DNA of 38,072 nucleotides from Smithellaceae bacterium. Its GTDB lineage: Bacteria > Desulfobacterota > Syntrophia > Syntrophales > Smithellaceae. The position numbers were made by a program, and so were the translations under genes. Below, piece by piece: positions 1,247 through 27,409 of the stretch; position 1 is the first letter of the stretch, and the number at the start of each line of letters is the position of its first letter. Below the pieces are notes generated by a model. It was not told the DNA's origin and searched no databases. It worked only from the letters and a program-made list of their open reading frames with translations. Location: contig JAQUVQ010000024.1 in assembly GCA_028693285.1 (NCBI GenBank), positions 1 to 38,072 on the forward strand, in the 5' to 3' direction.

Positions 1247-1281
1247 CCCATGACCCCTAACCCCTGACCCATTACCCCTTC
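1247..1281. repeat. Heptanucleotide array, 5 units in register
   Basis: Units CCCATGA, CCCCTAA, CCCCTGA, CCCATTA, CCCCTTC follow one another exactly every 7 bp. More degenerate units extend to the left to about 1160. Confidence 0.7.
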
Positions 1282-1672
1282 CCCCATACATCTGTGTCAA
1301 AAAAACCACAAAAAATACCACCTCAAGAGCTTTTTGGGCGGTTTGTTGTCATTGCCGCAACAGATGTGGTAAAAAATAAAACAGCCCGAAAGAGTTTTCC
1401 GCCGGTAATTTATTCTATAAAAGTAAATAAAATTAAATTAATAGATGAGTTTCTCTGCGGCTGGAACTTTTTGCCCGACTTCGAAACAGCCTCCAGTCCA
1501 ATCTGGGAATGAAATGTTAAAATATGGCACCGGTGTTGCTAGTAAACGGGCAGGCGAGGCGATTTTATGTCAGGAAATAAATCTTGACAACAACAGGAAG
1601 CCAAGCTAGTTTCGCGCCGCATGTTTGGCGGCCCAAGGTTGGGCAGGAGATCTTTGAAAATTAATTTATTGC

Positions 1673-1864: not shown

Positions 1865-3250
1865 ATGAAGAGATTTTGGTTAGTTTTGCTGTCACTGGGG
1901 TTGATTGTCGCCTTCAGCACGTCAGCGATGGCCCTGGATGTAAAATTCAGCGGCGAGTATTACGCGGCAGGGTTGTATTTGGATAAAACAAATCTTACAA
2001 AGAGCACGACGAGCGGCAATCCCAGCACCGCTTTCTACTTCCAGAGACTTCGTCTGGGTACGCAGTTTGTTGTTTCTCCGGGCCTGAGCCTGATTGCCCG
2101 TGCGGATGTAATGGAAAGAGCGTGGGGCGCTTCGAGATCAGTTCCCGTAGGTGGTGCAGCTGCAGCTGACATTTTGTCGGCCGGCACCAGAGCTGAAAAT
2201 GAAAACATCGCTTTCGATTTGCTGTATGTCAGCTATGCTTCGCCGATCGGTCTGTTCAATGTTGGTTACCAGATCGATGGTGCGTGGGGTACGGTATACG
2301 GCGACAGCTCACAGCCGCTGGGTAAAATCGCTTATTATTTGCCCATCGGTTCACTTGGAATCGGTTTGCAGATGGGCAAAAACCCCGACGGCGAACAGAG
2401 CAGGACAGCGATTAATGCGTCGAATGCTGCAGATCGGGACGACAGTTTCTATACAGCGTTTGTAAGATATGGCTGGAAGGGCGGCGATACCGGCTTGCTG
2501 TTCAAGCACATTCGCAATGCAAGGAACAGAAATGTAGTTGGAACCATTCCGGGTCTTGCGGATAGCGCTGGTCTTACGACGCTGCAGTATGCTCTTGTTC
2601 CTTATGTCAAAGCCAAGGTAGGTCCGGTTGCTCTACAGGCGGAATTCACCTGGGCGCAGGGTAAAGCGCAGAAATGGGAAGGATGGATGAGTCCTTTACT
2701 GGGAGGACTGCCTCAGGATGTTGATCTCAATGCTTACAGCGGTTGGCTCGATGCAACGGCCGATTTCGGAATGTTCTATGCGGGCGGTACGTTTGCTTTC
2801 GCCACGGGCGATGATGAAGGAACCGCGGACAAAATCGAAGGTGGTTTGTCAGGCGGCCGTGACTGGAATCCCTGTTTGATCATGTTCAACAATGACCTGA
2901 ACTACTGGGCGGGAAATATCAACGGTTATGCCGGCACGAACATGACCGCTCCGATGATGAATGCCTATTTCATCCAGGCCCGCATCGGCGTTCGTCCGAT
3001 CGAGAAACTGGACATCGGTCTGTCTTACTCCTGGGCCAGAGCCGAAAAGAGCCTGGGTTTTAATTTCGACAACAGAGATTACGGCCAGGAAATCGATCTG
3101 ACGGCCACGTACAAAATCACCAACAACCTGTCCTATATGCTGGGCGGCGGTTACTGGATGGTAGGCAAATACTTCCAGGGAAATGTTTTTGTTAACAATG
3201 AACTGCAGGACAATTTGCTGCTCATCAACAAGCTGACGCTGACCTTCTAG
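1865..3250 (+). CDS. Outer-membrane porin-like beta-barrel protein
   Basis: A 461-residue protein with a Sec signal peptide (KR at residues 2-3, hydrophobic core 5-18, likely cleavage after AMA at 21-23). The mature part is rich in alternating aromatic/polar strands, Gly and Asn, has no further transmembrane helix, and ends LTLTF with a C-terminal phenylalanine, the sorting signature of outer-membrane barrels. It resembles the large porins common in Deltaproteobacteria, which allow diffusion of small solutes; the solute is unknown. AAGGAGGAAAAA sits directly before the ATG, and a strong terminator follows, so it is a monocistronic and probably highly expressed gene. Confidence 0.8.
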   Translation: MKRFWLVLLSLGLIVAFSTSAMALDVKFSGEYYAAGLYLDKTNLTKSTTSGNPSTAFYFQRLRLGTQFVVSPGLSLIARADVMERAWGASRSVPVGGAAAADILSAGTRAENENIAFDLLYVSYASPIGLFNVGYQIDGAWGTVYGDSSQPLGKIAYYLPIGSLGIGLQMGKNPDGEQSRTAINASNAADRDDSFYTAFVRYGWKGGDTGLLFKHIRNARNRNVVGTIPGLADSAGLTTLQYALVPYVKAKVGPVALQAEFTWAQGKAQKWEGWMSPLLGGLPQDVDLNAYSGWLDATADFGMFYAGGTFAFATGDDEGTADKIEGGLSGGRDWNPCLIMFNNDLNYWAGNINGYAGTNMTAPMMNAYFIQARIGVRPIEKLDIGLSYSWARAEKSLGFNFDNRDYGQEIDLTATYKITNNLSYMLGGGYWMVGKYFQGNVFVNNELQDNLLLINKLTLTF

Positions 3251-3303
3251 CGGAAGCTGAAAAAAGACTGAAGGCCAAAGGCTGAAGTCTGAAGGTAAAA
3301 CGG

Positions 3304-3347: not shown

Positions 3348-3426
3348 TAACAGGTTAGGGGCGATGGGCTAGAGGCTATAGGAGGAAAAGAAGTGGGTGG
3401 TGCATAGTGAATGGTGGATGGTAGGA
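3348..3426. repeat. Two adjacent heptanucleotide arrays
   Basis: First run (3348-3382): TAACAGG, TTAGGGG, CGATGGG, CTAGAGG, CTATAGG. After a 9-bp A/G-rich break, a second run (3392-3426): AGTGGGT, GGTGCAT, AGTGAAT, GGTGGAT, GGTAGGA. Both keep exact 7-bp register. The first is the purine-strand version of the CCYATNG type, the second the RGTGRAT type. The arrays lie between the porin terminator and the 3' end of the toxin gene. Confidence 0.75.
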
Positions 3427-4302: not shown

Positions 4303-4330
4303 CATTGCTCATCACTTTTCACTTCTCACC
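4303..4330. repeat. Heptanucleotide array overlapping a stop codon, 4 units
   Basis: CATTGCT, CATCACT, TTTCACT, TCTCACC in exact register. On minus these encode the last residues (VVRSEK) and the TGA of the acyl-CoA synthetase gene, so the repeat has become part of the coding region. Confidence 0.65.
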
Positions 4331-6396
4331 ACTGTTGCATCGACGGCGATGGGCTTTCCCCGATAGACCACGAGCGGGTTGACGTCGATCTGCCCGATGT
4401 CCGGGCAGGCGGCGGCAAGGTTGCCCAGGTTGACGAGAATATCCGCCATGATTTTCATGTCCAGCGGCTTTCCGCCGCGGAAACCCTGAAGAAGTTTTTT
4501 GCCGGAGATGCGCCCGATCAGTTCACGGGCGGTGGATGCGGAAAGAGGCGCGGGTGCGAAGACGACGTCCTTTTGCAGCTCGGCAAAAATACCTCCCAGG
4601 CCGAACATCACGCAGGGGCCGAACTGCTCGTCGCGGAGCACGCCGGCGATCAGTTCATATTCCACAGGCATCTGCTTCTGCAGCAGAATTCTTTCTTTTC
4701 CCTTCAGCTTTTTTGCCAGATCGGCATACGCCGCCCTGATTTCTGAAGACGACGAAAGGCCCAGCCGGACCAGACCCGATTCCGTTTTGTGCACCTGTCC
4801 TTCGGCAAGTCCTTTGAGGACGACTGGAAAGCCAATTTCGCGCGCGGCTTCAACCGCGCCGGCCGCCGAAGAAACAATTTTTTCTTTCACGGTCGGGATG
4901 CCGCAGATTTTCAACAGACGCTTGCTGTCGTATTCATCCCAGATGGGCTCCGGGCAGGAGGAAAGAACCGCCGCGGCCTTTGGCGGCAGTTTTGCCCGTC
5001 CGGCGGCCGCAAGTGATAAAGTCCTTTTGCGCGGCTTGCAGCGTGAAGCGCAGGCCAGGCACTCGACCGCGCGAAACAGTTCTCCGTGGGCGGGAATTCC
5101 GCACTCCTGGGCCTCGCGTTTGAAGGCTCGAAGCGCGTCGCGCCGGCCGATGACCCAGATGATCAAAACTTTTCCTTCACGGTCCGCCGCCGCCTTGAAA
5201 TTTTTCAGCTTTTCATAGTTGGGGTAGAGGCCGACGAAGAAGTGCATAAAGAGGACATCCACTTTCGGGTCCTTCACCAGGGCGTTGAAAGCCCCGACAT
5301 AGGCGGCCAGCGCGCCTTTCCCGGCAAACGCGGGAAACAGGTCCACGGGGTTTTCGGCAGGCATCCAGTCGGGAAAGATATTGGCCAGTTCTTTTATGGT
5401 TGACGCGGAAAGATCCGCGACGCTAAGCCCATGCTGTTCGACCAGATCGCAGGACAGAATGCCCGCGCCGCCGCTGAAGGTCAAAATGGCCGTTCGGCAC
5501 CGCTTCGGGGTGTGGCCGATCATGGCCAGCGCCCGCGTGACTTCCATCATCTGGTGAAAGTCCCGCGCGAGCGTCACGCCGGCGAGCGACAGGAGCGAAT
5601 CCTGAAGCCTCGCGTTTCCGGCCAGGCTCGAGGTGTGGGAAAGGGCGGCCTTGGCGCCGGACCTGCTTTTGCCACCCTTGAGCAGGACGATCGGCTTTCT
5701 TGCCCGGTCCGCCAGCTCCAGAAATCTGCGCCCCCTCACGATGGATTCCAGATAAAGGGCAATGGCGTCGGTTTCCTCGTCTTCCAGCAGGTATTCCAGT
5801 ACATCGCATTCGTCGATGTCCATTTTGTTGCCGATGGAGCAGGCCTTGGCGATGCCCACGGCCCGCTCGCTCATCAGATCGGCCAGAAAGCCGGCGGAGA
5901 GCATGCCGCTCTGCACGACCATGGAAATGCGCCCCGCGATCAGGCCGTCACTGTGAATGTTGGGGTGCATGAACGTAAAAAAGAATTTTCGGGGAATGTC
6001 CACCAGGCCCATGCAGTTGGGGCCCCAGAGGCGGATGCCCGCTTTCCGGGCGACGGCAAGGCAGCGCTCCTGCAGCGCGCGGCCCGCGGGGCCGGTTTCG
6101 GCAAAGCCCGCGCTTTCGATGATGACGCGCCGAATGCCCTTGCGCCCGCAGGCGGCAAGCGCTTCGGGGACGGAAGGCGCGGGGACGATGACGAGGGCCA
6201 GATCCACCGGGCCGGGGATGTTCTCCGCCGTTGGAAAGCAGGGCAGGGACCGGATCTCAGTGTAGTTTGGATTGACGGGATACACGCTGCCCGTGAAGCC
6301 CAGGCTGAGGTTCACGAGAAGCTGGCTGCCCAAACTGTTTTCGCGCGGAGTTGCACCGATGACGGCAATGGACGCGGGATCAAAAAAAGTCTTCAT
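4312..6396 (-). CDS. ADP-forming acetate/acyl-CoA ligase, fused alpha and beta domains
   Basis: A 694-residue single-chain enzyme of the acetyl-CoA synthetase (ADP-forming) family, which interconverts acyl-CoA + ADP + Pi and acid + ATP + CoA by way of a phosphohistidine. Domain order: CoA-binding Rossmann domain (about 1-130, starting FDPASIAVIGATP), two succinyl-CoA-ligase-like flavodoxin domains (about 150-440) with the phosphoacceptor His254 in ALSHTSSLAG, and an ATP-grasp domain (about 470-694). Such fused forms conserve energy by substrate-level phosphorylation in anaerobes, including syntrophs; the acyl substrate cannot be predicted. It starts at ATG after GGAG (nine bases). Its last six residues and stop lie in a heptamer repeat. 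Confidence 0.88.
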   Translation of the reverse strand: MKTFFDPASIAVIGATPRENSLGSQLLVNLSLGFTGSVYPVNPNYTEIRSLPCFPTAENIPGPVDLALVIVPAPSVPEALAACGRKGIRRVIIESAGFAETGPAGRALQERCLAVARKAGIRLWGPNCMGLVDIPRKFFFTFMHPNIHSDGLIAGRISMVVQSGMLSAGFLADLMSERAVGIAKACSIGNKMDIDECDVLEYLLEDEETDAIALYLESIVRGRRFLELADRARKPIVLLKGGKSRSGAKAALSHTSSLAGNARLQDSLLSLAGVTLARDFHQMMEVTRALAMIGHTPKRCRTAILTFSGGAGILSCDLVEQHGLSVADLSASTIKELANIFPDWMPAENPVDLFPAFAGKGALAAYVGAFNALVKDPKVDVLFMHFFVGLYPNYEKLKNFKAAADREGKVLIIWVIGRRDALRAFKREAQECGIPAHGELFRAVECLACASRCKPRKRTLSLAAAGRAKLPPKAAAVLSSCPEPIWDEYDSKRLLKICGIPTVKEKIVSSAAGAVEAAREIGFPVVLKGLAEGQVHKTESGLVRLGLSSSSEIRAAYADLAKKLKGKERILLQKQMPVEYELIAGVLRDEQFGPCVMFGLGGIFAELQKDVVFAPAPLSASTARELIGRISGKKLLQGFRGGKPLDMKIMADILVNLGNLAAACPDIGQIDVNPLVVYRGKPIAVDATVVRSEK

Positions 6397-6666: not shown

Positions 6667-6694
6667 TCTTTTCACTCATCACTCATCACTTTCC
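6667..6694. repeat. Heptanucleotide array, 4 units
   Basis: TCTTTTC, ACTCATC, ACTCATC, ACTTTCC in exact 7-bp register, just upstream of the HD-domain gene. Confidence 0.65.
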
Positions 6695-6741: not shown

Positions 6742-8169
6742 ATGCTCACCATGGACAAGAGAGATTTCCCCTCCAACGTGTATGACGGAATGGCGCTGAT
6801 AGCCGATCCGATCCACTCCTATGCGTTTTTCACGGCGCCCCGGGAGTCCGACCCCGCGGAAAAAACGGAAAAGGACATCATCGACTCTCCCTGGATGCAG
6901 AGGCTTCGGCGCATTTACCAGCTGCAGAGCGCCCGCTGGGTTTATCCGGCGGCGGAGCACACCCGTTTTCAGCATTCTCTGGGCGCCATGCATGTCGCCG
7001 GAGAATTTGCCCGTCATCTTTACCCCAGCCTCAAGGAAGTGTGCCGGGATGTTCCGTCGATGCATTACGTCGAGGAACTGCTTCGTCTCGCGGGGCTGCT
7101 GCACGACGTGGGGCACGGACCCTTCGGCCATTTTTTTGACGAGCATTATCTTTCCGACTGGGACCTGACGCACGAGGATATGGGCCGGCAGATCATCGTG
7201 AAGAAGCTGGGGGCTCTCCTTTCAAAGATTTCCCGCAGCCCTTCCGGACCTTTCGCCCGAGGGGAAAAGCTTGATCCGCGGCAGGTGGCCTTTCTGATCA
7301 AAATGCCGGGCGAAGGCGAGGAGCCCCGGCAGCCGCGCTGGCTGGTCTGGCTGCGCCAGTTGTTTTCCGGCATCTATACGGTCGATAACCTGGACTATGT
7401 TCAGCGCGATGCGTACATGACCGGCTTTTCGCTCGACATGGTCGATGTGCCGCGCCTGCGCTACTACACGTTTTTCACCAAAGACGGCCTCGCGCTTCAT
7501 CAATCCGGCATCTCGGCGCTTCGGCGCTTTCTCAACGCCCGCCTGAATCTCTACAGCAACGTGTATTTTCACCGCACGACGCGCGCGCTGGATCTGCACC
7601 TGCAGGAAATTTTTTCCGAAACGCTGCGCCTGATGTATCCGGAAAATCCATCAAAGCATCTTGACGCATACCTGGGCTGCGACGAGTGGTCGCTGTTCAG
7701 CGAGGTGCGGGGCTGGCTTTCCGTCAAAGACGCGCGCCGCAAAAAACTGGCTCTGGAGTGGCGGAAGATTTTTGCAAGGCGGCTGAAGTGGAAGATGTCT
7801 TTTGCCGCCGAAATCTCCGTCGATTCGATGCAGCGGGGGACGGAGTTTGTCGGCGCCCAAAACTATGAGGCGAGAGTTCGGGAATGCCTGCCCGCCTCGC
7901 TTCAGCGCCTGCCGTTTCGCGTGGACGTTGCCACGCAGGACCCGCGTCCGCTCAATCCGATCGCCGAACCGGGCAAACGCATCAATATCTTCAATCCCGT
8001 CACGGGCAAAACGTCACCCGAACCGCTCAATGAAATCTACCGGTTCATTCCGGCCCGCGTCCGGCACTTCCGCGTGTTCGCGCTGAATCATGATCATGAC
8101 GAGGAGCTGGCCCGGGCGGCCGAATCGGCGCTGGGCAACATCGAACGCTCCATTCCGACGAATGTGTGA
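6742..8169 (+). CDS. HD-domain phosphohydrolase (dGTPase-like, COG1078 type)
   Basis: A 475-residue cytoplasmic protein of the HD superfamily. The N-terminal part carries HTRFQHSLGAMHVA (residues 73-86) and the metal-binding LLHDVGHGPFGHFFDE with His121-Asp122; the later NLDYVQRDAYMTG supplies the third ligand Asp, as in COG1078 proteins. Characterised relatives hydrolyse dNTPs or other phosphoesters; the substrate here is unknown. Two ATGs nine bases apart are possible starts (the second gives MDKRDF); neither has a clear ribosome-binding site, so the first is kept. It converges on ubiE, the two being separated by a heptamer array. Confidence 0.8.
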   Translation: MLTMDKRDFPSNVYDGMALIADPIHSYAFFTAPRESDPAEKTEKDIIDSPWMQRLRRIYQLQSARWVYPAAEHTRFQHSLGAMHVAGEFARHLYPSLKEVCRDVPSMHYVEELLRLAGLLHDVGHGPFGHFFDEHYLSDWDLTHEDMGRQIIVKKLGALLSKISRSPSGPFARGEKLDPRQVAFLIKMPGEGEEPRQPRWLVWLRQLFSGIYTVDNLDYVQRDAYMTGFSLDMVDVPRLRYYTFFTKDGLALHQSGISALRRFLNARLNLYSNVYFHRTTRALDLHLQEIFSETLRLMYPENPSKHLDAYLGCDEWSLFSEVRGWLSVKDARRKKLALEWRKIFARRLKWKMSFAAEISVDSMQRGTEFVGAQNYEARVRECLPASLQRLPFRVDVATQDPRPLNPIAEPGKRINIFNPVTGKTSPEPLNEIYRFIPARVRHFRVFALNHDHDEELARAAESALGNIERSIPTNV

Positions 8170-8174
8170 GAAAC

Positions 8175-8262
8175 AGGCGAGGGGCCAGGGGCGATAGGCC
8201 ATAGGCAACAAATCCTATAGCCCATAGCCCATAGCCTATAGCCTATTGCCTATTGCCCATTG
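8175..8262. repeat. Heptanucleotide array with orientation switch, 12 units
   Basis: Five purine-strand units (AGGCGAG, GGGCCAG, GGGCGAT, AGGCCAT, AGGCAAC), a 4-bp AAAT junction, then seven pyrimidine-strand units (CCTATAG, CCCATAG twice, CCTATAG, CCTATTG twice, CCCATTG). The halves are complementary in type, so the array can fold into a long imperfect hairpin between the convergent HD-domain and ubiE genes. The ubiE stop codon (CTA on plus at 8243-8245) lies inside the second half. Confidence 0.85.
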
Positions 8263-9007
8263 CCTTTCTTCCCACATGCAGCCAGGTGATGCCGAAGGTC
8301 AGGGAATATTTTTCCACATGGACCATGCCCGCTTCTTCGAGAATTTTTGCAAATTGTCCGGGAGACGGGAAATTCATGATGGAATCGGCCAGGTAGGTGT
8401 AGGCGGCGGGGTTTTTGGAAAAGATTTTTGCAAACGCGGGCAGCAGAAAATTCAGATAAACATAATAAATCCATTTGAAAAAACGGTTTTGGACAAAGGT
8501 CATCTCCAGAATCATGACCTGTCCGCCGGGGACGACGACGCGAAGCATTTCGGAAAGCGCGCGGGCGCGGTCGGGAATGTTGCGGATGCCGAAGGCGATG
8601 CCCGCGACGTCGAAGCGGTTGTCTTCAAAAGGCAGATGAAGGGCGTCGCCTTCCATGATTTGAATCCGTCCGGCAAGGTTTTTCTTCTGAACCTTATCTT
8701 TGGCCGCCGCCACCATCTCGTTGACAAAGTCAAGGCCGGTGACGGAAATATCCGGATGCATGTGGGCCGCCGCAATTGAAAGATCCCCCGTTCCGCAGGC
8801 GACGTCCAGATACCGCCGTGTTTGAAAGAACCGCATTTTTTTTGCGGCGAATTTGCGCCAGGCCACGTCGCGCCGAAGGCTCAGCAGACGGTTTAAAAAG
8901 TCGTATTTTCCGGTCACGGTGGAGAAAATCTCTTTGACGATGCGGATGCGCTGGGCGTCGGAGATTTCCTGAACGCGCGGATATTTTTCGGGGACGTTCG
9001 TATTCAT
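8243..9007 (-). CDS. ubiE: Demethylmenaquinone / demethoxyubiquinol C-methyltransferase
   Basis: A 254-residue SAM-dependent class I methyltransferase of the UbiE/MenG family, which methylates demethylmenaquinone in the last step of menaquinone synthesis. Visible signatures: F..V...YD.LN near the N terminus, SAM motif I LDVACGTGDLS (about residues 68-78), VTGLDFVNEM, EGDALHLPF, and the family motif FGIRNIPDRARALSEM. The start chosen (MNTNVPEKYP) has AGGA ten bases upstream; an upstream in-frame ATG at 9070 gives an unrelated 21-residue extension. The last residues AMGNRQ and the TAG come from the heptamer repeat. It stands alone, not in a men operon. Confidence 0.9.
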   Translation of the reverse strand: MNTNVPEKYPRVQEISDAQRIRIVKEIFSTVTGKYDFLNRLLSLRRDVAWRKFAAKKMRFFQTRRYLDVACGTGDLSIAAAHMHPDISVTGLDFVNEMVAAAKDKVQKKNLAGRIQIMEGDALHLPFEDNRFDVAGIAFGIRNIPDRARALSEMLRVVVPGGQVMILEMTFVQNRFFKWIYYVYLNFLLPAFAKIFSKNPAAYTYLADSIMNFPSPGQFAKILEEAGMVHVEKYSLTFGITWLHVGRKAMGNRQ

Positions 9008-9150: not shown

Positions 9151-9648
9151 CTACCCCGCTTTGATGGGAACCTTGGTCCCTTTGGCTTTAGCCGACTGGA
9201 TTTTCGGAATGCAAATGTTCAGGACGCCGTTTTTAAAGCCGGCGGACGCCTTGTTCGCGTCGGTTTCCCCGGCCAGAGGGATCACGCGGTTGAAAGAGCC
9301 GTAAGAGCGCTCCATGTAGTAATAATTTTTCCCCTTGTCTTCCTTTTCTTCCTTCTTTTCGCCTTTGATTGTTACTGAATCGCCGGTGATCGTTACTTCA
9401 ATATCTTTTTCCTCCACGCCGGGAAGCTCCGCGCGGATCACAAAATCCTTGTCGCTTTCCTTGACGTCCACCGACGGGATGAACGCTCCGAATCCTCCGG
9501 CGGAAAGCGCGCGCGGCGCGGCTTCAAATCCGGCAAGGAAATCATCAAACAAACTATTCATTTGGCGCTGCAAAGAATAGAAGGGATGATCGTCATCTCT
9601 TGCCGCAGGCCTTGCAATGGTGGGCAGCAGATTTTTTATTCTCATCAT
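9151..9648 (-). CDS. Small heat-shock protein Hsp20 (third of the cluster)
   Basis: About 165 residues with an alpha-crystallin domain: PSVDVKESDKDFVIRAELPGV and the later GDSVTIKGEKK, GSFNRVIPL and FKNGVLNICIPK, ending in basic KVPIKAG with the V-P-I tail motif used for oligomer contacts. It is an ATP-independent holdase in the cytoplasm. AGGAGG precedes three consecutive ATGs; the middle one has the best spacing and is used. A longer frame to 9717 begins MVSLSNHDSA, which is a translated dispersed repeat rather than protein. It is separated from the other two Hsp20 genes by repeats and is the most divergent of the three. Confidence 0.88.
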   Translation of the reverse strand: MMRIKNLLPTIARPAARDDDHPFYSLQRQMNSLFDDFLAGFEAAPRALSAGGFGAFIPSVDVKESDKDFVIRAELPGVEEKDIEVTITGDSVTIKGEKKEEKEDKGKNYYYMERSYGSFNRVIPLAGETDANKASAGFKNGVLNICIPKIQSAKAKGTKVPIKAG

Positions 9649-9736: not shown

Positions 9737-9787
9737 ACGCTGTATTGTTACCCTAATCAAATCGAAAGGTATGAGCCATGAGCTTTT

Positions 9788-9892
9788 CCCTTATTACCCA
9801 TTACCTCTGACCTATGGCCCCTCGCCTCTCTTTTCACTCATCACTTTCCGCTTTTCACTTCTTGCCTATCGCCCATGGCCTCTCGCCTGTTT
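9788..9892. repeat. Heptanucleotide array, 15 units in perfect register
   Basis: The longest array of the window: CCCTTAT, TACCCAT, TACCTCT, GACCTAT, GGCCCCT, CGCCTCT, CTTTTCA, CTCATCA, CTTTCCG, CTTTTCA, CTTCTTG, CCTATCG, CCCATGG, CCTCTCG, CCTGTTT. No unit is identical to its neighbour, yet the 7-bp phase is never lost and nearly all bases are pyrimidines at the first three positions. It mixes the CCYATNG and ACTCATC subtypes, showing they are one family. It lies between the second and third Hsp20 genes. Confidence 0.88.
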
Positions 9893-9909
9893 GTTTACCA
9901 TCCACTACG

Positions 9910-10302
9910 TTATGCCGCCTTGATCGCAATCTTTTTCGGTTTCACTTCTTCCGCTTTCGGCAGCTCCAGTCTCAGAACGCCGTTCTTGACGGTGGCGACG
10001 ATTTTATCCCGGTCGATCCGGTCCGACAGGGTGAACACCCTTTCATAGTCGCCGATTTCATACTCGGAGTACATCATCGCCGCGTCCTTGACATGTCCGT
10101 TTTCAACGCGCCCAGTGATGGTTAGAACATTTTTCTCGAGTTCAATGTCCACCGTATTTTCATCGACGCCCGGCATGTCGGCCAGCAAAAAGAGGGAATC
10201 TTTATTTTCATAAATATCGACGCGCGGCACGAACGTTTTGACGTTGCGAATGCGTTCCGTTGCGGATACGTTTTCTGTTTTCTGAATATCTTTTTCTAAC
10301 AT
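9910..10302 (-). CDS. Small heat-shock protein Hsp20 (second of the cluster)
   Basis: 130 residues, nearly only the alpha-crystallin domain: FVPRVDIYENKDSLFLLADMPGVDE (about residues 24-48), VLTITGRVE, YERVFTLSDRIDRDKIVATVKNGVLRLELPK and a basic tail KKIAIKAA. A cytoplasmic ATP-independent holdase. GGAGG lies nine bases before the ATG. It follows the first Hsp20 gene by 20 bp and is very likely co-transcribed with it. Confidence 0.9.
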   Translation of the reverse strand: MLEKDIQKTENVSATERIRNVKTFVPRVDIYENKDSLFLLADMPGVDENTVDIELEKNVLTITGRVENGHVKDAAMMYSEYEIGDYERVFTLSDRIDRDKIVATVKNGVLRLELPKAEEVKPKKIAIKAA

Positions 10303-14202: not shown

Positions 14203-15393
14203 ATGAATGATTCTTGTCTGTCGGCCATGTCCGTTTTTGTTCTGTCCCTGCTGCTTTTGGGATTTACGCAGCAGCCGATGAGCGCAGGCGCGTCTTCCGA
14301 ATCCGTGAAACGCCATACGGTCGGTTGCGCTTTTCCGCTGAGCGGACGTTTTGCCGGTGAGGGGAAAAAGGCGAAAGATGCCGTCATGCTGTCCGCGCGG
14401 CAGTTCAGGGCCCGTTCTCCGTTTTCCCCGGGAATCGTCACCGCCGACTCAGGCGCCGATCCGGCCATGATGAAAAAAGCGATCGCCCATCTGGCCGACG
14501 GGGAAAATGTCGTGGCGATCATCGCTGTTTCCGGCGCCGCCGAGGCGGAAGCCGCCGCCGTGGAGGCCCAGCAACGGCGGGTCCCGGTGATTTTGATCAC
14601 GCCCAAAGAGGGCGTCACGAAGGCGGGCGACCAGGTGTTTCAGCATTTTCTGACGCCGGAGCAGCAGGCGGAAGCCCTGGCGGATTATGCGGTAAACGAG
14701 CTGCGGATCAACGTGTTCGGCACCCTGTATCCCGGGGATGAATACGGAGAGGGGATGAACCGGCTTTTTTGCGCCGACGTTCACAAAAACGGGGGCAGGG
14801 TTGCGCGGTCGGTTGCGTACCCCATGGCGCAGACCGACTTCAGGCAGCAGATTAAAAAACTCGTCGGGAAAAAGGACAAGGCATCGAGATTCCCGGACGC
14901 CCGGGGCGAAGAAGAAATGCCGGCGGAACTCGAAGGCCTGTTTATTCCGGATTCGGCTTTTCGTGCGAGAATGATCACGGCGCAGCTTGCTTTTTACAAT
15001 GTCAGGAAGATAAGGATTTTCGGGACCAGTTTGTGGAATACGCCCGACCTGCTGCGCAAGGGAAACGGATACATGGAAGGGGCTTTTTTCGCGGACAGCT
15101 TTTATGCCCGCGGTTTGGCGGCGGAAACCGTGAATTTTGCGGATGCCTACCGGGCCGTTTACAACCGTGAGCCGCAGACGATGGAAGCGCTGGCCTATGA
15201 CACGATGAGACTGGTCCTGAATATTTTGGAGGATCCCGAAATTGAAACCCGCGACGGGTTTGCGCAGGCGCTGCTGGCGACGAAGGATATTCAAGGCGCC
15301 ACGGGCGTCATTTCTTTCGGCGGCGGCCGCGTGGCGCAAAAAGAGGCATTGATTTTGAAGGTGCAGGACGGGGAAATTGTGCAGGTCCGGTAG
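14203..15393 (+). CDS. Periplasmic binding-protein-like protein (type 1 fold; substrate-binding or PBP activator)
   Basis: 396 residues with a Sec signal peptide (hydrophobic SVFVLSLLLLGF, about residues 9-20, no lipobox Cys). The mature part starts HTVGCAFPLSGRFAGEGKKAKDAV, the standard opening of Leu/Ile/Val-type periplasmic binding proteins, and contains ITPKEGVTKAGDQVFQ and LYPGDEYGEGMNRLF. No permease or ATPase gene is adjacent. In Deltaproteobacteria such orphan proteins are often annotated as penicillin-binding-protein activators (LpoA-like), so cell-wall regulation is an alternative to transport. AAGGGG precedes the ATG; the frame upstream of it overlaps the dnaK terminator. Confidence 0.7.
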   Translation: MNDSCLSAMSVFVLSLLLLGFTQQPMSAGASSESVKRHTVGCAFPLSGRFAGEGKKAKDAVMLSARQFRARSPFSPGIVTADSGADPAMMKKAIAHLADGENVVAIIAVSGAAEAEAAAVEAQQRRVPVILITPKEGVTKAGDQVFQHFLTPEQQAEALADYAVNELRINVFGTLYPGDEYGEGMNRLFCADVHKNGGRVARSVAYPMAQTDFRQQIKKLVGKKDKASRFPDARGEEEMPAELEGLFIPDSAFRARMITAQLAFYNVRKIRIFGTSLWNTPDLLRKGNGYMEGAFFADSFYARGLAAETVNFADAYRAVYNREPQTMEALAYDTMRLVLNILEDPEIETRDGFAQALLATKDIQGATGVISFGGGRVAQKEALILKVQDGEIVQVR

Positions 15394-15397
15394 GGAC

Positions 15398-15467
15398 GGA
15401 TAGTGAATAGTGGATGGTGGATAGAAAAAAAGAGGTAATAGGTCATAGGCAATGGGCGATAGGCTGA
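15398..15467. repeat. Heptanucleotide array, 10 units in register
   Basis: GGATAGT, GAATAGT, GGATGGT, GGATAGA, AAAAAAG, AGGTAAT, AGGTCAT, AGGCAAT, GGGCGAT, AGGCTGA in exact 7-bp phase. The GGATAGT and AGGCRAT subtypes are joined by an A-rich unit without loss of phase. Starts 5 bp after the stop of the binding-protein gene. Confidence 0.85.
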
Positions 15468-15468
15468 A

Positions 15469-15517
15469 TGTAGGGAACGGCTTGCCACCCGTAAGGATGG
15501 TCGCGACCGCTCCCTGC
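15469..15517. repeat. TGTAGGG element, third divergent copy
   Basis: TGTAGGGAACGG at the left and CCGCTCCCTGCG at the right form imperfect inverted ends around a GC-rich middle. It sits between two heptamer runs, as at 1084 and 4218. Confidence 0.55.
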
Positions 15518-15534
15518 GAGCGACGAGTGATGAG
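15518..15534. repeat. Heptamer run abutting the surE start codon
   Basis: GAGCGAC, GAGTGAT and GAG run directly into the surE ATG. The repeat therefore occupies the place of the ribosome-binding site; the only purine-rich stretch near the start is repeat-derived. Confidence 0.55.
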
Positions 15535-23478: not shown

Positions 23479-24720
23479 TCAGTTCCTGAATAATCCCATC
23501 GACGGCATGGCCCGCGCAGCCTGATTGCAGAGCGCCCCGACGATGCCGTTTAACCATGCCGTCCCTTTTGCAGAAACCGCCCCGGGCAGTTTCCGGACTG
23601 CTCCGACGTAGTCGGTTCTGTCATTTCCCGCGCTTTTTTCGAAGTCTTGCAGAAAGGCTTCGAGAAGCGGATCCGTTTTCGTGAAGCCGTCCGGTATTTT
23701 TCCGGTGAAGAGGTCTTCGCAGAAACCGGTTTGTTCAAGAAACTCTTTTCTGGCTTCCTCTTCCGGCCCGGGATTGGCGGCGGCTTTTTGGGCCATCGCC
23801 TTTAGCCTCTTCAGCCGCTCTTTTTTGGCCGAGGCCAGCGTCTCCAGAACGCCCGCGTAAATCAGCGGGCCGAACGGCCGGGCATCCAAAAACGGCCTGC
23901 GGACGTGCGCGTACCAGGATTCCAGAGCGGACAGGTTGGCCAGATACAGGATATTGTTTTCCACGATTCTCCGCAGGTTCGGGTAAGCGGCGCGACGATA
24001 GTTTTTCGCGCCGTCCGCGGGCGTTGTCTCAAAAATCAACAGGCCGTCATCGGGATAATCATGGCGCAGGACCGAGCCCGCGGCCGCGACGTTGCCGAAT
24101 CCCATGCGCACCGGACCGATGATGCCGCCCTGGCCGCCCAGAAAAATGGGGGGCTGGTTGAGCATTACGCCCCGGGGAACATCCCCCAGGAGGGAAGGGG
24201 TTGTTTTGTCCGCGTCCGGCGTGAAATTGAAGTGAATGTAGGAACTGCCCACTTCGGAGTGGTTGCTGCGGCTGGTCCCGCCGGCCATCAGGCAGTCGCA
24301 GAAGTTGATCAGGCTGCCCAGCGTGACAAAGGGAAAGAGAATGGTCTGTTTCAGGCCGACCGAGTGGGCGCCGCCCGCTTCTTCCTCCAGGAGGCATCCT
24401 TCCCGGACGTGCGCGCCCATTCCGAGGTTTGCCTTCTCCAGAAAAACCGATTTGCTGAAGAAGCCTCCCTTCAGCTCGACGCGCTCTCCGATCTGACAGT
24501 CCTCGATGGTCGCCGGCGCTTCATACCCCAGCTTGCAGCCGGACGAGATGACGGTTTTCCCGCCGTAAATCCGGCATCCGGGATAGATCGCTGTGCCCTT
24601 TCCCGAAATCTGATCGATCTTGACGTCGTCGCCGATGTCCAGCGTCGCCGGATTGGGGATGTTTACCCCTTTGTCCAGCAGCTGCTGTATTTTTTCATGG
24701 GATCTCGGCTTAAAATCCAT
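23479..24720 (-). CDS. GlmU-like left-handed beta-helix protein without a nucleotidyltransferase domain
   Basis: About 413 residues. The first 240 or so show hexapeptide-like turns (ATLDIGDDVKIDQISGKGTAIYP, GCRIYGGKTVISSGCKLG, ATIEDCQIGERVELKGGFFSKS) as in the beta-helix half of GlmU; the rest is helical and charged. In related bacteria such proteins are annotated as UDP-N-acetylglucosamine pyrophosphorylase-related or protein GlmU, but the LxxGxGTRM-type uridylyltransferase motif is absent. It precedes glmM, so a role in hexosamine 1-phosphate acetylation or scaffolding is plausible. Start MDFKPRS has GGGGG five bases upstream; an ATG at 24732 lies at the edge of repeat DNA. Confidence 0.7.
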   Translation of the reverse strand: MDFKPRSHEKIQQLLDKGVNIPNPATLDIGDDVKIDQISGKGTAIYPGCRIYGGKTVISSGCKLGYEAPATIEDCQIGERVELKGGFFSKSVFLEKANLGMGAHVREGCLLEEEAGGAHSVGLKQTILFPFVTLGSLINFCDCLMAGGTSRSNHSEVGSSYIHFNFTPDADKTTPSLLGDVPRGVMLNQPPIFLGGQGGIIGPVRMGFGNVAAAGSVLRHDYPDDGLLIFETTPADGAKNYRRAAYPNLRRIVENNILYLANLSALESWYAHVRRPFLDARPFGPLIYAGVLETLASAKKERLKRLKAMAQKAAANPGPEEEARKEFLEQTGFCEDLFTGKIPDGFTKTDPLLEAFLQDFEKSAGNDRTDYVGAVRKLPGAVSAKGTAWLNGIVGALCNQAARAMPSMGLFRN

Positions 24721-24734
24721 ACAGGCCCCCATTG

Positions 24735-24790
24735 GAGTGATGAGTGGAAAGTGAAAAGTGAAAAGTGAAGCCGATCACTCATCGCCAATC
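24735..24790. repeat. Heptanucleotide array, 8 units with subtype switch
   Basis: GAGTGAT, GAGTGGA, AAGTGAA three times, GCCGATC, ACTCATC, GCCAATC in exact register. The strand preference flips from purine to pyrimidine at 24770, as at 8210. Lies between gdhA and the GlmU-like gene. Confidence 0.75.
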
Positions 24791-24850
24791 ATCTTGTCTT
24801 TTTTACTATTTACCATCCACTTTTTTTACTATGAGCTGTGAGCTTTTTCC

Positions 24851-24885
24851 CCTATCGCCCATAGCCCATAGCCTATCGCCTTTTT
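24851..24885. repeat. Heptanucleotide array, 5 units
   Basis: CCTATCG, CCCATAG, CCCATAG, CCTATCG, CCTTTTT, directly downstream of the gdhA stop. The T-rich last unit is on the non-template side for gdhA, so this is not a standard terminator for it. Confidence 0.75.
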
Positions 24886-24886
24886 A

Positions 24887-26281
<1,395 letters not shown>

Positions 26282-27283
26282 TTAAATTGTCTCAATATCG
26301 CGCATTTTCTCAAATTCCATGACGGTGGACATGGCTTTGTTGTCCACCGTCAGTCCTTCCTCGCAAACCGCCGCCACCGGATTCAGGCCGCCGATCAGAA
26401 TCATCCCGATTTTATTCATATCCACATGGGTCTGACAAACCGGGTGTCCAATGTGGCCGATGGAAAGAACGCCGTGCAGGCCGGCCCCGGCGAAATCCTC
26501 CATCACCCGCTCCACCAGAGGGAGGCTGAGCGCGGGGATTTCCCGGAAGTTGGCCAGAATTTTTCCTTCGCCGGTCCTGGCGACGCTTCGGACGGACGTC
26601 ATTTTGCCGCGGATGAAGATTTCCGAAGGGTCCAGCGAGGAGCCGGCGTAGTGAATCAGCTCCACGAAACGAAGGATTTTCCCGCCGCGCATCTGGAGAA
26701 TGCCGCCGAATTTGGAGTCGATCGGAATGCCGTGCTTCAACAGAACGCCGTTGATGACGATGCTGCAGACGGTGGCGAAGCCGACGCTGCCTTCCGGCAC
26801 CGCGATGTCCCCCAGGCTTTTTCCGGCCTGCGCCACGGCCACGCGCGAGCTGACGGCCAGTTTTTGCTGAAACACGGGCTTCATGATGGAGAGGGCCCGG
26901 GAAAAATGCTCTTTCGGAAAGAAGGAGACGTTGACCGGCACCAGGCCGCGCTTCTTTTTGACGTCAAAGGTGGTTCGAAACGAGAGAAGGTCGATGCGCG
27001 AAATGGAAAGGCCGATCTTATCCTGCACGCGGGCGTCGGAAATTTCGGCAAATCCCTGTTCGGTGATTACGCGGCCGTCGCGGCGGCCCACGAGTTTGGT
27101 GAGCCCCCGTTCATCCATGATCTTCAGGTGGTAGCGGACCGTTCTCTCGCTGAGCTGCACGTGATAATCCGACATTCGGCGGGCAATGACGCGCGCGCCC
27201 ATCGGATCTGGGCTTTCGTGGAGGATCTTCAGAATCAGAAGAACCTTCCGTTCAATGTCTTCTGGTTTAAAAAGCTCTTTCAT
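26282..27283 (-). CDS. NrpR-like nitrogen regulator (HTH + DUF128)
   Basis: 333 residues. N-terminal winged-helix domain (about 1-75): IERKVLLILKILHESPDPMGARVIARRM...LSERTVRYHLKIMDERGL. The rest (about 80-333) is one NrpR/DUF128 domain with GLVPVNVSFFPKEHF, GSVGFATVCSIVINGVLLKHGIPIDSKFGG and GMILIGGLNPVAAVCEEG. NrpR of methanogens represses nitrogen-assimilation genes and is released by 2-oxoglutarate; it often carries two such domains, while this protein has one. Its place directly before gdhA fits control of ammonia assimilation. GGAAG lies four bases before the ATG; a frame extending to 27391 has no start support. Confidence 0.85.
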   Translation of the reverse strand: MKELFKPEDIERKVLLILKILHESPDPMGARVIARRMSDYHVQLSERTVRYHLKIMDERGLTKLVGRRDGRVITEQGFAEISDARVQDKIGLSISRIDLLSFRTTFDVKKKRGLVPVNVSFFPKEHFSRALSIMKPVFQQKLAVSSRVAVAQAGKSLGDIAVPEGSVGFATVCSIVINGVLLKHGIPIDSKFGGILQMRGGKILRFVELIHYAGSSLDPSEIFIRGKMTSVRSVARTGEGKILANFREIPALSLPLVERVMEDFAGAGLHGVLSIGHIGHPVCQTHVDMNKIGMILIGGLNPVAAVCEEGLTVDNKAMSTVMEFEKMRDIETI

Positions 27284-27302
27284 TCGACTTCCAATCGGCA
27301 AT

Positions 27303-27349
27303 CGGCAATCGTTTGCCGTATCCCTACTTGCAAACCGTTTGTTTGTCAA
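27303..27349 (-). promoter_or_regulatory. Promoter and palindromic operator candidates of the nrpR-gdhA operon
   Basis: On minus, TTGACA (27344-27349), 17 bp, TAGGGA (27321-27326). The spacer holds CAAAC-G-GTTTG (27331-27341), and just downstream of the -10 lies CGGCAA-TCGT-TTGCCG (27303-27318). Two related palindromes covering the promoter suggest an autorepressed operon. They do not match the GGAA-N6-TTCC operator of methanogen NrpR. A short heptamer run CAATCGG, CAATCGG, CAATCG overlaps the downstream end (27292-27311). Confidence 0.45.
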
Positions 27350-27409
27350 ATAAAATTTTCGGCCGCTTCGAAAGAGCGCTCCGGAAGGCAAAAAGAGCGG
27401 GGAAGGGCC

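Follow-up and report, generated by a model that had tools for sequence, protein, structure and literature searches.

Heptanucleotide arrays in the window

The window, meaning the whole stretch of DNA that was analysed, is one entire contig (C49, 38,072 bp) of the draft genome of the Smithellaceae bacterium, which comprises 2.68 Mb in 95 contigs. Two neighbouring Hsp20-family genes, 9151-9561 and 9910-10302 (-), flank a gap with a heptanucleotide array (9796-9892, -; here and below the sign given with an array is the strand on which it is G-rich) that ends about 18 bp before the stop of the second gene. The initial annotation had claimed perfect phase across 9788-9892. This proved wrong, because the anchors of three abutting blocks (9796-9832, 9831-9862, and 9860-9892), each phased in itself, sit in registers 4, 0, and 2 (mod 7). 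A CC anchor keeps register 4 in 9797-9826 and register 2 in 9865-9887, and a CACT block in register 0 lies between. The main array also shifts phase between the two word classes that had been read as joined without a break; the wider claim, that both belong to one family that counts 7, is supported.

Further arrays occupy gaps on both sides of the Hsp20 genes. A G-rich arm at 771-808 (+; lag-7 segment) is the left member of a pair whose partner, C-rich on the + strand, lies at 840-867 (-; lag-7 signal). An ACCCCTG-type array at 1247-1289 (-) has a lag-7 identity of 0.75 (p 0.0005). An AAGGCTG array (3264-3294, +) begins 13 bp past the stop codon of a + gene ending at 3250, and is followed at 3357-3424 (+) by a GGCNATR block and after it a GTGGATG block, both G-rich and linked by an A-rich joint. 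Both were found by the lag-7 scan, as was a TCACTCA array, C-rich on the + strand (6668-6690, -), upstream of the + gene 6742-8169. The array at 4303-4330 (-; lag-7 signal) overlaps the 3' end of a CoA-ligase-like gene (4312-6396, -) and provides its TGA stop. A similar overlap is seen at a convergent gap, where a G-rich arm (8175-8207, +; lag 7 0.73) starts 5 bp past the stop of a + HD-domain gene, and an arm that is C-rich on the + strand (8214-8264, -; lag 7 0.91) enters the 3' end of a ubiE-like gene (8243-9007, -), encoding its tail AMGNRQ and stop. To the right, lag-7 signals mark three more arrays. The first is G-rich (15398-15467, +), 4 bp past the stop of a periplasmic-binding-protein gene (14227-15393); the second is a G-rich AGTGAAA array (24735-24769, +) adjoining the start of the - gene 23479-24732; the third, C-rich on the + strand (24843-24885, -), abuts the stop of a glutamate-dehydrogenase-family gene (24887-26248, -). 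A short GAGCGAC/GAGTGAT array (15517-15534, +; lag-7 scan) abuts the surE start codon, and its counterpart in the genome G036 is longer.

The ten stretches listed initially are real. Their lag-7 identity is 0.53-0.75 versus 0.24-0.35 in dinucleotide shuffles (p 0.0005-0.002 each against these shuffles), and none of the other lags between 4 and 10 approaches this. Several of them are of the reverse-complement type, and in 8175-8262 a G-rich arm precedes a C-rich one, forming an imperfect inverted repeat. Polarity and pairing, which the initial annotation missed, are the most informative features of the arrays.

Two other kinds of repeat were seen in the gaps. A short CAATCGG tandem (2.9 copies) with little strand bias lies at 27292-27311 in the gap 27203-27409. 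A REP-like palindrome (GTAGGGAACGGTCGCGACCGTTCCCTAC type, GTAG head) is present at 15469-15515 and in eight other stretches (L125, L122, L133, L141, L142, L144, L145, and L148); such GTAG-head palindromes are scattered in the gaps of the genus and often abut heptamer arrays. The arrays themselves are without the GTAG head and palindrome of REP elements with RAYT transposases; the separate adjacent element has both.

Unit length, unit sequence, and distribution

Beyond the window, five collections were searched: an own-genome sample of 1.21 Mb from the same draft; a relatives set of 20 stretches; a syntenic set of 20 stretches, mostly syntenic; a GTDB set of 116 contig pieces, drawn from a pattern scan across GTDB for four GGYNATR units; and an extra set of 16 stretches, mostly cyanobacterial, partly picked without regard to matches. 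Stretches from contigs C20, C21, C28, and C30 of the same draft (L021, L024, L028, and L029) read as N only, being either masked or withheld. Arrays in intergenic and coding DNA were counted by local lag scans (score of at least 12), because raw lag autocorrelation over all intergenic DNA was swamped by missed coding sequence and N runs. A cyclic 7-state HMM was dropped after drifting into purine tracts.

The lag-7 excess extends beyond the window. The 1.21 Mb sample holds 50 lag-7 arms, compared to 0-3 at lags 5, 8, 10, 11, and 13. At a score of at least 12, 94.8 kb of intergenic DNA of this genome contain 29 arrays at lag 7, 16 at lag 14, and 0-2 at other lags. The proposed absence of arrays from coding DNA held only as rarity: 4 lag-7 arrays were counted in 766 kb of coding DNA versus the 29 in 94.8 kb of intergenic DNA, and 4303-4330 and 8243-8264 give the last codons and stop of genes.

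The length of the units is constant and their sequence is not. In the own genome, 296 units fall into 142 rotation-normalised types, the commonest being ATGGTGG, AATGGTG, and AGTGGAT. With all sets pooled, unit-to-unit identity declines stepwise with distance over five units (0.80, 0.75, 0.70, 0.65, and 0.62). In gaps of the GTDB set without the searched unit, lag 7 accounts for 90 arrays and lag 14 for 52, with no more than 10 for any other lag; in the 16 further stretches the numbers are 39, 30, and at most 5. A family based on a single sequence was rejected from the unit diversity in the own genome and in the GTDB-set gaps. It had been suggested that a mechanism counts 7 or that selection acts on spacing; the 142 unit types, with only lags 7 and 14 in excess, favour counting, and spacing selection is not needed.

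The distribution is patchy among relatives, where one unit class was found in 20 of 51 family members and another in 16 of 297 phylum members. It is also wide. Among the matches listed in the four-GGYNATR scan are Cyanobacteria, Bacteroidota, Deltaproteobacteria, Chloroflexota, Planctomycetota, Verrucomicrobiota, and others, isolates included.

Polarity and pairing of the arms

According to the direction of their G-rich strand, arrays at most 20 bp from a gene follow one rule: this strand runs 5' to 3' away from the gene in 207 of 229 cases summed over four sets. The ratio of outward to inward arrays is 28:1 in the own genome, 38:5 in relatives, 10:1 in the syntenic set, and 131:15 in the GTDB set (p 3e-24). 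The rule is valid at start and stop edges and in all four gene arrangements, and array-free gaps show the opposite skew at start edges. Cyanobacteria obey it as well (43:7, with 22:0 for flush arrays in further cyanobacterial stretches).

Genes were called with a purpose-built 5-mer caller, a limitation for these edge-based counts, and arm order was therefore also counted without gene calls. Among paired arms, defined as arms of opposite polarity 5-150 bp apart, 65 are ordered G-then-C and 1 is ordered C-then-G (p 1.8e-18). The order is kept when both arms lie more than 50 bp from genes (15:2), and also by arms of unrelated unit classes, such as GGTTCAA facing CACCATT in L007. Lone arrays located farther than 20 bp from a gene have no preferred orientation (34:34). 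The arrays are a sequence-independent class of polar heptanucleotide arrays present in many bacterial phyla.

A polarity set by the replication strand was considered for contig C12 of the genome G022, whose arrays change strand from one side of a low-GC island to the other, and was rejected, as most arrays there still fit the gene-edge rule. On the same contig, the listed matches of one heptamer class at 61-118 kb (L078, L079, and L080) all fall in about 56 kb around the island (0.31-0.38 GC), and this region is possibly a horizontally acquired segment.

The main rival to a directional origin is a serious one. Ordinary replication slippage with a 7-nt step, a bias proposed previously (cited in PMC4692102 and PMC4679880), could create both orientations, and selection on neighbouring genes could purge the wrong one: a G-rich sense strand before starts would mimic ribosome-binding sites or start codons, and a C-rich strand after stops, being without stop codons, would permit C-terminal extension. 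Such a filter fits the usual stop content (G strands mostly carry stops in all frames and C strands mostly none), the arrays that provide the stop codon of several genes, and the absence of preference among single arrays away from genes. Because G strands often carry stops in all frames, the translation filter was tested directly. Polarity is equally strong for arrays in which the C strand alone is stopped in every frame (13:0), for those in which this is true of neither strand (67:5), and for those without any stop (12:0), and the filter was rejected as the main cause of polarity. The 15:2 order far from genes also counts against it, and the Xanthomonas unit GGGAATC and the Nostoc unit GGGGATT are stop-free on both strands, yet their published polarity is the same (PMC4692102). 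Slippage with an orientation filter is regarded as possible and somewhat doubtful.

Another consequence of the outward rule is that a transcript reads through C-rich sequence before it enters a gene, from whichever side. These heptamers could accordingly be Rho-loading sites that stop stray transcription, and Rho is present in the own genome. No Rho domain was found in seven array-rich cyanobacterial genomes, yet the cyanobacterial counts follow the rule. A Rho barrier is refuted as a general cause and is highly improbable as an explanation of the arrays; a lineage-specific role of Rho is possible. The polarity is explained neither by stop-codon content nor by Rho or background composition.

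Another alternative is that the arrays are stem-loop elements. The G-rich 5' arm would then pair with the C-rich 3' arm, in RNA or in DNA, and the hairpin would serve, for example, 3'-end formation or transcript stability. With 7-nt units the two arms could change together, as they do in the Nostoc trnL intron at the P6b stem. Two-armed gaps fold far better than shuffles: 8170-8265 at -45.9 kcal/mol (z -4.9), 761-885 with the arms 771-808 and 840-867 at -43.7 kcal/mol (z -4.2), and 24733-24882 with z -4.2. Partner specificity is modest: duplexes between own partners are significantly stronger than other pairings in the relatives and GTDB sets, with species effects mixed in; within the own genome this partner specificity is not significant (p 0.07 and 0.12). 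More than half of the array-bearing gaps hold arms of a single polarity only, and the two such gaps that were folded do so poorly (9767-9900, z -1.7; 15394-15534, z +1.1). Flush single arrays follow the same polarity, and some pairs combine non-complementary unit classes. Stem-loop formation accounts for the two-armed part of the data and is unlikely to be what the arrays are in general.

Orthologous gaps and the origin of the arrays

Comparison of related species shows that place and polarity persist at orthologous gaps and that the units are replaced. The convergent gap 8170-8242 has GGCNATA-type arms here, and in the relative G038 (about 90% protein identity) it has GAGTGAT and CCACCAT arms in the same order, with gap lengths of 73 and 76 bp, respectively. 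The adjacent ubiE-like methyltransferase ends, past the conserved LHVG, in AMGNRQ* here and in MVDSG* in G038 (L274 near 4862), both tails being written by local heptamers. The own genome, G038, G032, and G040 all have a C-type array flush with one and the same edge of the Hsp20 gap, with different units in each, and no C-type array was detected in this gap in G033, G037, G034, and G043. The SurE gap measures 9-34 bp in array-free relatives and up to 141 bp in array-bearing ones.

This recurrent use of the same gaps, together with the regular spacing and the REP-like GTAG-head palindromes often beside arrays, could also be expected if the arrays served some protein as binding or recombination sites at 7-bp spacing, or if they were the ends of a mobile element. 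Because units vary within one array, from arm to arm, and from one orthologous gap to the next, they offer no conserved sequence-specific site, and neither a common interior nor a target duplication was seen. Such sites or ends are an improbable explanation.

The outward polarity of 7-base arrays across distant phyla suggests a directional DNA-making process. Our preferred reading, held tentatively, is that the arrays may arise while spacers are repaired, as 3' ends realign by 7 nt. The DNA would be synthesised from 3' ends pointing into the spacer, and one likely setting would be a break between genes that has been resected as far as the last base the gene needs. Resection would be limited by selection on the gene, and arrays would survive flush with gene limits because selection removes those cutting into genes. 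The 3' end would then realign about 7 nt back on its own fresh sequence, copy about one unit with errors, and repeat; the joining of two such ends would leave a gene followed by a G arm and, further on, a C arm followed by a gene. Unit identity falling with distance (from 0.80 to 0.62) is as stepwise copying predicts. Also in favour of this reading are the lag-7 specificity, the edge polarity and arm order with their independence of stop content, the opposite skew of array-free gaps, the order kept by arms of unrelated classes, the rewritten ubiE-like tails, and the lengths of the SurE gap.

Several observations count against repair realignment to different degrees. Along the G strand, homogeneity is slightly higher in the half nearer the gene than in the far half (C arms p 0.03; G arms p 0.06), a weak gradient that is the reverse of the simplest prediction of distal-tip growth. 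The somewhat better pairing of arms with their own partners is not predicted by independent extension of the arms. The 34:34 orientation of single arrays away from genes also counts against it, and no event was observed between near-identical strains.

The enzyme searches weigh against it as well. Ku was absent from all array-rich genomes tested and was found in one array-poor genome only, and Ku end joining was therefore rejected as the array maker. RVT_1 is missing from the own genome and from G040, G041, G022, and G351; a reverse-transcriptase maker is not required in these genomes. The putative polymerase would lie outside the Ku-dependent pathway and need not be a reverse transcriptase. 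Protection by RecBCD and Chi was considered through RecC, which is absent from the own genome and most array-rich genomes tested. In its broadest form, the proposal would be that in many bacteria a directional synthesis, distinct from Ku and without dependence on RVT_1, adds error-prone 7-nt G-rich repeats to 3' ends facing spacers and in this way keeps rewriting intergenic DNA and gene tails. That whole statement is quite unlikely to be correct. The proposed synthesis would be comparable to telomere addition in polarity.

Heptameric repeats between genes have been recognised before in several lineages. Cyanobacterial STRR heptamers are intergenic tandem repeats of 7 nt that take their names from a small number of fixed consensus units, and to our knowledge polarity is no part of their description. 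The heptamers GGGAATC of Xanthomonas and GGGGA(C/T)T of Nostoc are intergenic repeats whose G-rich strand lies near the 5' neighbouring ORF whatever its direction (PMC4692102). The present arrays resemble them in the 7-nt period, the mostly intergenic location, the same G-strand rule, and unit number and sequence that vary between relatives. Unlike these systems, which have one near-exact G-quadruplex-capable unit per genome, more than 100 unit sequences occur here, most of them without GGG runs, and the paired G-then-C order is added. Nostoc trnL introns have stems of degenerate heptanucleotides (TDNGATT or NNTGAGT) in their P6b loop, and one class replaces another at one site (PMC4476775). 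Degenerate heptamers are found on both stem arms in the two-armed gaps here, not in the one-armed gaps; the Nostoc loop belongs to a group I intron, whereas the present arrays lie in gene spacers and no Rfam match was found in the window. In Beggiatoaceae, the 7-nt unit TAACTGA is directly repeated between genes and follows a rule of orientation at start codons, and indels in 7-nt steps occur in Cyanothece (PMC4679880). The Beggiatoaceae repeats are one exact unit with almost no G/C strand bias, in contrast to the present arrays, and TAACTGA is not among the common units here. Geobacter metallireducens, a former Deltaproteobacterium, has multicopy elements of four or five tandem heptamers, some inverted (PMC2700814). 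These differ in forming BLAST-alignable families, in occurring within genes too, and in being read as regulatory.

The initial statement that no description exists for this lineage was too strong in kind, given the intergenic heptamers of cyanobacteria, Xanthomonas, Beggiatoaceae, and Geobacter metallireducens (PMC4692102, PMC4679880, PMC2700814). The bacterial heptamer excess is already known, as is the same polarity for one unit each in Xanthomonas and Nostoc (PMC4692102). The polarity independent of sequence, the phylum-wide reach, the paired order, and the site-specific replacement of units are new. In the open-access literature, no paper was found that states a sequence-independent rule across phyla, the G-then-C order, or unit replacement at orthologous gaps.

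The scattered reports of heptamers in cyanobacteria, Xanthomonas, Beggiatoaceae, and Geobacter come together under one geometry. Across phyla, unit length and strand direction are set by a rule that leaves the sequence free, and such a rule points to a mechanism for making spacer DNA and not to a sequence that serves a function. The array-making process can also rewrite gene tails, and the arrays are a testable handle on the creation and replacement of bacterial intergenic DNA.
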